From a virus: DNA of 24,069 nucleotides. Position 1 is the first letter of the stretch, and each line of letters starts with the position of its first letter. Location of the stretch: positions 1 to 24,069 of IMG/VR virus record IMGVR_UViG_3300013118_000263; one strand, written 5' to 3'. Under the pieces are notes generated by a model. That model did not search any database and was not told the DNA's origin. It saw only the letters and a program-made list of their open reading frames with translations. The position numbers and the translations under genes were made by a program. This document shows, in pieces, positions 11,383 through 14,554 of the stretch.

Positions 11383-11490
11383 ATGACAAAAACACTAACT
11401 ATTAGTGACGACATACATAGATCACTAAAAATGGAAGCAGCAAAAAGAGGCATTTCCATTAGTGAACTAGCAGAGGAGAAACTGAAATGA
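11383..11490 (+). CDS. Minimal ribbon-helix-helix (CopG/Arc-type) regulator (35 aa)
   Basis: The 35-residue product is close to the smallest possible ribbon-helix-helix unit: a strand (KTLTIS), helix A (DDIHRSLKMEAAKR), a GIS turn and helix B (ISELAEEKLK). Dimers of this fold insert the paired strand in the DNA major groove; here the contact residues would be Lys3, Thr4 and Thr6. It lies just after three AATTACAAAA repeats and overlaps the secreted-protein gene by ATGA, so it probably controls this unit, including itself. The helix-B end is short, so stability may depend on the dimer. Family call is strong from the pattern. Confidence 0.8.
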   Translation: MTKTLTISDDIHRSLKMEAAKRGISISELAEEKLK

Positions 11491-12509
11491 AGATTGCAAT
11501 AATGTTTGTAATTGCTTTTCTAGTAGGATCTTATGCCTATGTTTATGCCGAAGAACAAACAGTTGACGAATCAGTTATTGTTCCGTTTGAGTTCAATGGT
11601 AGAGTTTGTGGAATGTTAGAGAATGGTAATTTTGTTTGTGAATGGGATCCATCAATCATTGATCTAAATGATATTATGGCTAACGGAACAACAGCAATCC
11701 CTAATCCAACCGAAGCAAGCACAACCGTTAATCAAACAGAAGCAGAACCTGAACCAACAGTTGAGGAAGAACCTGAAACAATCCTTACAAAGTTTGAGAA
11801 AGATCTTGAAAGATTAGAACAACAAGAAAAACTCAATTCAATAGATAAGGAATATTTGGCGCTGCTAAAGAACTTAGCAGAATGTCAAAGAGGTTATGCT
11901 GAATCATTCGGAGTAATGGAACCCTCATCATTCCCAATATCCTACACTTGGATAAATGATAGAAATGGCGAATCTCCTGAATGGACTAAATCCTTTGATT
12001 ATAAAGGACGACATGCTGAACTCAAAAAAGGTATTGAAGAATGTAAAGCCATTCGCACGATCCTCAATCCAGTGACTTTAGGAGTTTATACATTACACAT
12101 GGGACAACACTTTGGATCTATCCAACCTCATCATTCTGAAAAGGCAATAGTTGATGAAGGTAGATGGCTAGATGTTAAGACTCATGTTCCACTCAATGAA
12201 CACAATTTCATAGAGTCACTTGAGGACGCAAAGAACGCAATTTGTAATCATACCTTATACGAACAACGAACAAAGGATTATGCAAATTGTCCTCCTATCC
12301 AATATCCCGAAGGTGATATTGTAAACCAAAAGAGATTCATCGAATATGGATCATCAGTTGAAGATAAATGGAAAAACTATCTCACTGACGGAGGTTTACA
12401 ACAGGCTAAGCAAATAATGGGTGAAAAACTAAGAGAGAAGGCAGAACAACTTAGAGAAACCCAAGCAATACAAAGTCAACAATACACTGGCGAAGGTTAC
12501 GGACAATGA
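11487..12509 (+). CDS. Secreted coiled-coil protein (340 aa)
   Basis: The N-terminus is a clear Sec signal peptide: MK, a hydrophobic core (IAIMFVIAFLVGSYAYV) and a likely cut after YA at about residue 21, before EEQ. The mature part starts with a small two-Cys domain (VCGMLENGNFVC), then an acidic Pro/Thr/Glu linker (70-98), a charged coiled coil (100-130), a His-rich middle (YTLHMGQHFGSIQPHH) and a helical Gln/Glu-rich C-terminus. The Cys residues come in pairs, suiting disulphides outside the cell. GAGGAG (11473-11478) lies 8 nt before the ATG. It overlaps the regulator and the zincin gene (ATGA both times), so the three are made together. It may act on or bind the S-layer; no family recognised. 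Confidence 0.72.
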   Translation: MKIAIMFVIAFLVGSYAYVYAEEQTVDESVIVPFEFNGRVCGMLENGNFVCEWDPSIIDLNDIMANGTTAIPNPTEASTTVNQTEAEPEPTVEEEPETILTKFEKDLERLEQQEKLNSIDKEYLALLKNLAECQRGYAESFGVMEPSSFPISYTWINDRNGESPEWTKSFDYKGRHAELKKGIEECKAIRTILNPVTLGVYTLHMGQHFGSIQPHHSEKAIVDEGRWLDVKTHVPLNEHNFIESLEDAKNAICNHTLYEQRTKDYANCPPIQYPEGDIVNQKRFIEYGSSVEDKWKNYLTDGGLQQAKQIMGEKLREKAEQLRETQAIQSQQYTGEGYGQ

Positions 12510-12925
12510 GTCCAACCACTTTATTTTTTCTAATCGTAGTTATAGCAATTTTTGTAATTGGAGTCATGAAAGTTTATGGGGATACTCCGGACGAAATTAT
12601 TTGGGCAGTAAATGAAGAACATGGATTGAGAGCCGTCCCGATTTACTATGTAGATGAGATTGAAAATCATGGAGAGCATACTAAAGGTGTTTACAATCCT
12701 GTATTAGATGAAATTAGAATACTTAAAGGAGTAGGCGATTTTTATGCTGTTCCCGGTTGCACTATTCGAGATCACGAAATATTACATGCTTGGGGATATG
12801 ACCACGTATCCATGCAGGAGTTTAATTGCCCAAATCCAAACGTAGATTATGACGCTTTACAGTATAGAGAAACTTTTGTTAAACACTGGAATCCGAATTA
12901 TGAGTGGAATGGTTATGAACGATAA
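12506..12925 (+). CDS. Membrane-anchored metzincin-like zinc protease (139 aa)
   Basis: An N-terminal hydrophobic segment (residues 5-21, LFFLIVVIAIFVIGV) without a clear cut site should anchor the protein with the rest outside the cell. Residues 90-100 read HEILHAWGYDH, a full HExxHxxGxxH motif: His90, His94 and His100 as zinc ligands and Glu91 as the catalytic base, as in metzincins. Met103 soon after could relate to the Met-turn, though closer than usual. Cys85 and Cys108 flank the site and could be bridged. At 139 residues it is far shorter than most metzincins. It overlaps the secreted-protein gene (ATGA). A cell-surface protease that loosens the S-layer for virus exit or entry fits the context; this is inference. 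Confidence 0.8.
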   Translation: MSPTTLFFLIVVIAIFVIGVMKVYGDTPDEIIWAVNEEHGLRAVPIYYVDEIENHGEHTKGVYNPVLDEIRILKGVGDFYAVPGCTIRDHEILHAWGYDHVSMQEFNCPNPNVDYDALQYRETFVKHWNPNYEWNGYER

Positions 12926-13016
12926 TACTTACAAAGCCTTATTCACTGGACTAGTGATAGGCATGGTTTTCTCAATAGTCACTTTCTCAATAGGATATTA
13001 TGTGATTCCAAAATGA
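12915..13016 (+). CDS. Small single-span membrane protein (33 aa)
   Basis: The frame overlaps the zincin stop; ATG 12909 is also possible and adds two residues. The product has a short polar N-terminus and one hydrophobic span (LFTGLVIGMVFSIVTFSIGYYV), and its stop overlaps the ATG of the zinc-ribbon gene. Size and setting suit a second pore protein or a holin regulator. Too short for a family call. Confidence 0.55.
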   Translation: MNDNTYKALFTGLVIGMVFSIVTFSIGYYVIPK

Positions 13017-13177: not shown

Positions 13178-13417
13178 ATGGGAAATTTACCATTTGATAA
13201 ATCCGACACTGCTTTAATTGTCGGATTAGTCTTTTTGGGAATATTCGCAGGATTAGTCGTTTACATTATTGCTGACGCAGATCTAACAGAAATTAAGATC
13301 ACAGGTAATATTGACGCAAACTACATCTTTGGAATATTTACCGGAATAGTAATTGCCTTTATTGGATTCATCGGAATCACTAGAGGTAAAGTAACAACTC
13401 AAGGAAGTCAAAATTGA
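13178..13417 (+). CDS. Two-span membrane protein, second holin candidate (79 aa)
   Basis: Two hydrophobic spans (about residues 11-32 and 50-67) are joined by a polar loop (DADLTEIKITGNIDAN), with a basic, polar C-terminus. This is the size and topology of class II-like holins. The stop overlaps the TTG of the HExxH gene (TTGA), so membrane protein and zincin are paired here just as they are upstream. Alternatively it could anchor or export its neighbour. No sequence family recognised. Confidence 0.6.
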   Translation: MGNLPFDKSDTALIVGLVFLGIFAGLVVYIIADADLTEIKITGNIDANYIFGIFTGIVIAFIGFIGITRGKVTTQGSQN

Positions 13418-13959
13418 CTTTCATTTTTTCTACTGACAACATAAATCCGAAAGTCTATGAAAAGATTTTCAGAAGATTCTTTATGCTTCAATTTGGTTGG
13501 GAGGATTGGGTTGTTTTCAATAGAGAGTTTGACGTCCATATAGTCCCGGTTGAAAAATCAGATCAATATCGTCAAATGTATGGATTAACTTCTTGGAATA
13601 CTTCTAATGCTATACCTTGGGGATTCACTCAACCTCCAAATGTCGTATCAAATAACACTGTAAAAGGTAGGGTATTTTGGTTCGTTAATGATACTAAAAA
13701 CCCGTTTATTCTAAGACAGAACGCTGAAAAGGGACTCCATGAAGCACTCCATGCCGGTTGTTGGATAGTATTCGGGACGGAACGTATGAAAAGGAAATAT
13801 GATGATCCTCAAGCAAAAGCCGGAACAGAAGGAGCAAAGTATGTTATTGTTCCACATGATGTAGCATACGGCACTAAAGAAACTATCACTTTTTGGATTA
13901 GATATGGAATAATTTGGCTTCCAATAAAGGCATTATCCGTTAGAAATTATTTGCCTTGA
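13414..13959 (+). CDS. HExxH zincin-like protein (181 aa)
   Basis: TTG start overlaps the upstream stop. Residues 109-113 read HEALH in the setting EKGLHEALHAGC, the zinc-binding helix of metallopeptidases: His109 and His113 as ligands, Glu110 as base. The third ligand is not obvious; His148 (IVPHD) is a candidate, so this is a different subtype from the HExxHxxGxxH protein upstream. The N-terminal half is aromatic-rich with possible strands (FDVHIVPVE, KGRVFWFVND). No signal peptide is seen, so it may act inside, be released by a holin or ride in the virion. It closes the module just before a new promoter. A late lysis or adsorption protease is inferred. Confidence 0.65.
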   Translation: MTFIFSTDNINPKVYEKIFRRFFMLQFGWEDWVVFNREFDVHIVPVEKSDQYRQMYGLTSWNTSNAIPWGFTQPPNVVSNNTVKGRVFWFVNDTKNPFILRQNAEKGLHEALHAGCWIVFGTERMKRKYDDPQAKAGTEGAKYVIVPHDVAYGTKETITFWIRYGIIWLPIKALSVRNYLP

Positions 13960-13993: not shown

Positions 13994-14554
13994 ATGGGAT
14001 TCTTACATGAAATAGATCTTTTCTTGGGAAAGGCATTACAGAATCTTCAATGGTATTTCAATCACGAACTGCCAATAGCATTAGGCATGAAAGAAAATAG
14101 TATTTCTCAAGGACGATTAACTGTTATTAAAAATAAAGGTAAATGGAATGAAGAAATTATTTGTGAAAATAAAAGAAATTTGTTAACTGACGCAGGACGA
14201 ACTAAAGCCCATGCACAAATTTACACTAATACCTCAGCAGGAGCCAGAGGTTGTGGATACATTGCCGTCACTGTAAATACTGGAACTCCGGCAGATGGTG
14301 ATACTGTTCTTACAGGTGAAATCACGACAGGAGGTTTAGCAAGGGCTGACGCTTCAACAAAATCTACTTCAACAAATACTACTACAATATCTCACACTTT
14401 TACTGCTTCTGCAACTCATACTGCCGTCCAAAAAGCAGCATTATTTGACGCAGCAAGTTCAGGGACAATGTATCATATTAACACCTTTACAGCAACAACT
14501 TTAATCTCATCTGACACCTTAACTGTCACATGGACTTTGACTTTAGACGATTAG
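13994..14554 (+). CDS. Fibre/adsorption-type structural protein (186 aa)
   Basis: The N-terminal 35 residues are helical and hydrophobic (FLHEIDLFLGKALQNLQWYF) and may attach to another virion part. The rest is beta-rich and Thr/Ser/Ala-rich. ENKRNLLTDAGRTKAHAQI followed by a GxGYIAV strand and a TPADGDTVLTGEI segment is a pattern I associate with phage tail-associated proteins that begin N-L-[LV]-x-D-A-G-R. It opens the unit of fibre-like genes. Its exact place in the particle cannot be told. Confidence 0.6.
   Translation: MGFLHEIDLFLGKALQNLQWYFNHELPIALGMKENSISQGRLTVIKNKGKWNEEIICENKRNLLTDAGRTKAHAQIYTNTSAGARGCGYIAVTVNTGTPADGDTVLTGEITTGGLARADASTKSTSTNTTTISHTFTASATHTAVQKAALFDAASSGTMYHINTFTATTLISSDTLTVTWTLTLDD

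Follow-up and report, generated by a model that had tools for sequence, protein, structure and literature searches.

A group of adjacent genes in a viral genome fragment may encode an exit cassette, in which a holin-like membrane protein is combined with a protease-lysin without signal peptide and with an exported peptidase/partner pair acting on the cell surface; the chances of this reading seem about evenly balanced. It is based on gene content, gene order and overlap, the conservation of catalytic residues and the association of small transmembrane (TM) genes with zincin genes. The fragment, called the window here, is the whole stretch of DNA analysed (24,069 nucleotides, an IMG/VR virus record). 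The hosts of these tailed viruses are probably archaea, and the holin-like protein and zinc protease apparently stand in place of wall-cutting enzymes. The genes concerned are:

11487..12509, + strand: 340-aa secreted protein that begins with a signal peptide and is paired with the small HExxH protein; six Cys are invariant or nearly so across relatives
12506..12925, + strand: 139-aa protein with HExxHxxGxxH and a hydrophobic helix at its N-terminus (the small HExxH protein); ATG start, ATGA overlap with the preceding stop
12909..13016, + strand: 35-aa single-TM peptide; a similar peptide lies at the same place in L018 and L022
13013..13153, + strand: 46-aa peptide with a zinc ribbon (CxxC...CxxC), its start sharing ATGA with the stop of the TM peptide; L018 and L022 have a counterpart
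13178..13417, + strand: holin-like protein of 79 aa with two TM segments, sharing 70% identity with the one before the matrixin in L016
13414..13959, + strand: second zincin-like protein, 181 aa, no signal peptide; TTG start, HEALHAG at residue 109, in the slot of the matrixin of relatives
13994..14554, + strand: following gene, assigned to PHROG 5417 (function unknown), bounding the cassette on its downstream side

The window encodes a terminase (PHROG 675 match), and its portal-type and major capsid protein (MCP)-type genes were assigned by position and conservation. Searches with the latter two genes identified 80 and 44 related viral loci, respectively, the portal-anchored loci providing no additional cassettes. 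No relatives of the window MCP, the window portal or the L008 matrixin were found in the phage collection. Cellular genomes, scanned twice with MCP and portal alignments, also returned none, and hence no provirus or host link. The presence of MCM (G022, G034, G038, G043, G053, G054, G055 and G061) and of full-length RadA (G034 and G038) in related records nevertheless supports archaeal hosts for this virus group. G034, which has both, encodes a portal 59% identical to that of the window; four of the MCM-encoding records (G043, G053, G054 and G055) carry the TM-matrixin pair described below, and G061 carries a homologue of the second zincin of the window. Neither MCM nor RadA was found in the 24-kb fragment itself, which counts against an archaeal exit reading. 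Bacterial-type promoters and terminators occur in the window at or below the level of shuffled sequence, and Rfam gave no match there.

The association between a small TM gene and a zinc protease gene is clearest in the relatives, where the second gene of the pair is generally a matrixin. The PF00413 profile scores over the Pfam cut-off in 12 of 39 related records, with E-values down to 5e-29, and the H, E, H, G, H residues and the Met are invariant in an alignment of seven matrixin sequences (A5). A wider search with the matrixin gave 31 viral loci. A TM ORF of at most 110 aa lies immediately upstream of 20 of the 25 dereplicated matrixins, compared to 7/165 (4%) of background neighbours, the other genes in the same loci (p 1.5e-23, indicative only since the sequences are related). 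Only three of these 25 have a signal peptide, and among the 22 signal-less proteins 18 are immediately preceded by a small TM gene (19 if L012 is counted by inspection). The TM partners fall into seven sequence clusters and are thus diverse, as holins are. The complete order, secreted protein, small HExxH protein, small TM protein and zincin, is repeated in related viruses. Matrixins with a signal peptide, beside or replacing the signal-less one, occur at L189:4302-5102, L190:3426-4229 and L049:2278-3093. No report of a matrixin in an archaeal virus was found in the open-access literature.

These data also bear on the proposal that virions carry the signal-less zincin or matrixin in the tail, as a protease for crossing the S-layer at entry, and that the small TM gene is there by chance or serves assembly. 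In many MCP relatives the matrixin is succeeded by genes resembling those of tail fibres, and in L182-L184 the matrixin follows a fibre-like gene, which it overlaps by 4 bp, rather than a TM gene; the latter arrangement counts against the exit cassette, and entry via virions is possible for matrixins, particularly those of L182-L184. As a general explanation, however, a tail protease appears unlikely in view of the small TM gene preceding 18-19 of the 22 signal-less matrixins and of TM-preceded loci that include regions unlike tail modules (L179-L181, L186-L195).

In the proposed exit cassette of the window, the slot before the zincin is occupied by the 13178..13417 protein, which overlaps the 13414..13959 gene by 4 bp. 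A hydropathy scan of its L016 counterpart also gives two TM segments. It is a short protein within the range of one to three TM segments expected of holins and lies next to a lysin-type gene, and is therefore termed holin-like by size, topology and position. Matches to holin profiles are all below threshold: PF16931 gives 18.2 bits (cut-off 26.4) and PHROG holins only E 0.096 with the window protein, and PF23778 reaches no more than 17.1 (cut-off 32). The low Pfam scores count against the exit-cassette reading. Although this TM protein is ~70% identical to that preceding the matrixin in L016, the zincin following it in the window belongs to a different family, and from the sequences it is the zincin that was exchanged and the TM partner that was kept. 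The 13414..13959 protein gives no match with PF00413, carries HEALHAGCWIVFG instead of HExxHxxGxxH with a Met-turn, and is not connected to the matrixins by profile comparison. Its predicted model is poor (pLDDT 58), which, like the lack of a matrixin match, counts against the exit reading; the best structural matches, with weak scores, are largely zincins (collagenase, M61, YbeY and matrix metalloproteinases). Since profile comparison does not connect the two zincins, the slot after the holin-like gene seems to demand a zinc protease rather than one particular family.

Two further observations concern the neighbourhood of the TM gene. The small peptides between the two modules are conserved as a unit, a single-TM peptide of 33-35 aa and, after it, a small zinc ribbon, in the L018 and L022 cassettes even without the small HExxH gene, where they lie between the secreted gene and the TM gene. 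In G034, a 41% homologue of the TM protein preceding the matrixin in L171 (L062:16769-17074) stands between a 254-aa secreted protein and the portal, with no matrixin there.

The upstream module contains the 139-aa protein on which the earlier note had focused. Its description of the ORF (12506..12925, with HEILHAWGYDH at residues 90-100) is accurate, as is the coupling to the upstream ORF, which ends in ACAATGA so that stop and ATG share ATGA; the N-terminal anchor that it proposed is supported by a predicted helix at residues 3-23. A full HExxHxxGxxH motif is expected by chance ~0.0002 times in all window ORFs. Homologues or positional counterparts (87-162 aa) exist in about a dozen related records. 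Nearly all have a hydrophobic N-terminus, and they usually adjoin a 330-390 aa secreted protein, often with a 4-bp overlap as in the window. The neighbourhood to holin-like genes in other viruses, which the note had recommended looking for, was found. Because of purifying selection (dN/dS 0.38-0.44 relative to homologues in L004 and L013) and recurrence beside a similar secreted gene in related viruses, the 139-aa ORF is a real, constrained and fast-evolving gene, not a chance ORF.

The assignment to the metzincins was too specific. Only M1, H90, E91 and H94 are invariant in an alignment of 11 sequences (A6), C108 being nearly so. The metzincin-clan site HExxHxxGxxH/D, with His at position +10, is present in the window, L004, L185 and L063; the His is shifted to +11 or +12 in L039, L010, L033 and L078, the +10 residue is Glu in L013 (a close relative), L025 and L039, and the L016 protein has neither His nor Glu at +10. 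Alignments A6 and A8 show no conserved Met-turn after the third His. No family was found for the protein in Pfam, PHROGs or NCBIfam, nothing convincing in the phage collection, and no relationship to the matrixins by profile comparison. The predicted model (pLDDT 75) is confident for the greater part of the core, with block means of 77-94 between residues 31 and 110, and its structural matches, though weak (Foldseek best E 0.55, VIA best Z 3.6), are mostly zincins: selecase, jannalysin, IrrE, archaemetzincin, matrix metalloproteinases and SPRTN. SPRTN, selecase, the matrix metalloproteinases, archaemetzincin and IrrE score within 1 Z of each other. Matches to CoA transferases, PIH1D1 and lumazine synthase in the structure library were dropped as weak, and mLST8, from a PDB sequence search, represents chance matches only. 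With no Met-turn, a variable third His and weak fold matches to mixed zincins, the predicted protein is best called a minimal zincin and not a metzincin. The third zinc ligand is likely H100 in the window and perhaps Glu in the L013 counterpart. The variability of this position in some relatives (no His near +10 in L016 and L025) and the retention of the secreted protein without the small HExxH protein in L018 and L022 could indicate that the 139-aa protein binds zinc but is not proteolytic, acting as a secreted protein that regulates its 340-aa partner or resembles an inhibitor of it. Such a role is very improbable, since every one of the 11 aligned sequences keeps the H, E and H of HExxH, the E being the catalytic Glu, and almost nothing else in the alignment is constant.

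The secreted/small-HExxH pair has a history of its own. Between the window and L004, the synonymous distance of the small HExxH gene (0.95) exceeds that of the MCP (0.41), and, of the two relatives, L013 has the more similar secreted gene but L004 the more similar MCP; this suggests that the pair has been exchanged between viruses. In the same comparison dN/dS is 0.07 for the MCP, 0.06 for the TM gene and 0.17 for the second zincin. The module also varies in composition. In G005, G007, G028, G034 and G047 a 200-230 aa TM protein lies between the secreted and small HExxH genes, and in G006 a similar protein of 218 aa follows the small HExxH gene; two of these proteins (G034, G047) give weak MG2-like C-terminal matches. 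Proteins of this size with an N-terminal TM segment stand beside the small HExxH gene at L063:5419-6108, L185:4234-4851 and L053:17487-18143. They could be spanin-like envelope linkers.

The rapid divergence of the small HExxH gene compared to the MCP (dN/dS 0.44 vs 0.07; identity 53% vs 96%) is expected for a tailor-made surface target and, with the export segments on both proteins, would agree with a surface-remodelling function: the peptidase would trim the host receptor, which would keep progeny from being recaptured and a second virus from binding (superinfection exclusion). The pair moreover occurs without a detected matrixin in G006 and G034, which counts against the exit cassette, and because of such records a separate role for the pair, receptor removal for example, may apply. 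The late-gene position and the location of the pair directly before the TM-zincin pair in most records having it argue in the opposite direction, leaving receptor removal a rather doubtful explanation of the pair.

A possible clue to control of the protease, within the exit-cassette reading, comes from the matrixins. All 23 signal-less viral matrixins examined, including L008:14134-14790, carry a Cys no later than residue 31 of the ORF as called, ahead of the catalytic domain, and it is the sole Cys in ten of them (probability ~1e-16 under random Cys placement, relatedness ignored). Cysteine-switch latency is known for matrix metalloproteinases and is also reported for Wss1 (PMC4559962). The N-terminal Cys possibly provides such latency in the viral matrixins, which would fit a latent cytoplasmic protease freed by a holin.

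Exit could thus be envisaged as follows. Late in infection, the two-TM protein (13178..13417) would make holes in the membrane of the host, as holins do. Through them the zincin without signal peptide (13414..13959), a cytoplasmic protein and in most relatives a matrixin, would get out and cut S-layer or other surface proteins, in the role that endolysins have in bacterial phages. The exported pair (11487..12509 and 12506..12925) would work from outside, the small HExxH protein being a membrane-tethered zinc peptidase co-made with a disulfide-rich partner that might guide it, restrain it or be its substrate. The envelope would be weakened, or surface proteins cleared, and progeny would leave. 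The distribution of export signals, lacking in most matrixins and present as N-terminal hydrophobic segments in both members of the pair, counts in favour of this scheme. The analysis supports the earlier note in assigning a small protein of zincin type to a late module, of the exit kind, in a tailed virus that belongs to an archaeal group. The note had left open whether the enzyme served lysis or entry: exit is favoured, and entry is unlikely for the pair, since both members have segments for export or anchoring at the N-terminus and exported proteins work on the cell that makes them. A stronger lysin candidate than the 139-aa protein is the product of the gene immediately following the holin-like one, a zincin or matrixin without signal peptide, which the note does not mention. 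The most elaborate form of the proposal, in which matrixins and their zincin replacements act as lysins from within the cytoplasm of S-layer archaea, the N-terminal Cys keeps the matrixins inactive, virus-coded holins let the enzymes out, and the exported small-zincin/partner pair prepares the surface, is plausible but falls somewhat short of being probable.

The exit of tailed viruses from archaea coated by nothing but an S-layer is still unexplained. A review of 2015 proposed holins combined with tailor-made S-layer proteases, at a time when isolated archaeal viruses had yielded no holin gene and enzymes degrading the S-layer were unknown (PMC4456609). A 2025 survey, with no mention of such enzymes in the passages covered, found lytic proteins in only 10.9% of archaeal dsDNA viruses (PMC12596118). 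If correct, a holin acting with a latent S-layer protease would count as the first system of enzymatic lysis among tailed viruses whose archaeal hosts lack pseudomurein. The cassette, apparently replacing the wall-cutting enzymes of bacterial phages, could show how S-layer-only cells are burst; the recurrence of a compact holin-like/zincin pair makes the idea directly testable and provides a sequence signature for finding more.

The arrangement resembles the holin-endolysin pair of bacterial tailed phages, where a small TM gene lies just before, and often overlaps, a late gene for a signal-less lytic enzyme and where TM partners are highly diverse, but the enzyme here is a zinc protease (matrixin or other zincin) and not a peptidoglycan hydrolase. 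The second gene of the relatives agrees with PF00413 matrixins in HExxHxxGxxH, Met and overall profile, whereas most of the viral proteins lack a signal peptide, and they have no separate prodomain but an N-terminal Cys before the catalytic domain. Minigluzincins are characterised by HExxH with a downstream Glu as third ligand. Selecase and jannalysin (Methanocaldococcus jannaschii), minimal archaeal zincins of ~110 residues, are among the top, though weak, structure matches of the 139-aa protein, which differs in its HExxHxxGxxH site and N-terminal hydrophobic helix. Among known exit devices of archaeal viruses, pseudomurein endopeptidase (Pei) cuts pseudomurein, and the SIRV2/STIV1 pyramids involve no enzyme, a membrane protein being their builder (PMC4456609). 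The phage-derived Mtz-Tim pair of Listeria, a secreted metzincin and its TIMP-like partner, promotes lysis and virion release (PMC8235301). It is bacterial, Mtz has a Met-turn and Tim is a lipoprotein; the parallel is a functional one, with no sequence relation claimed.
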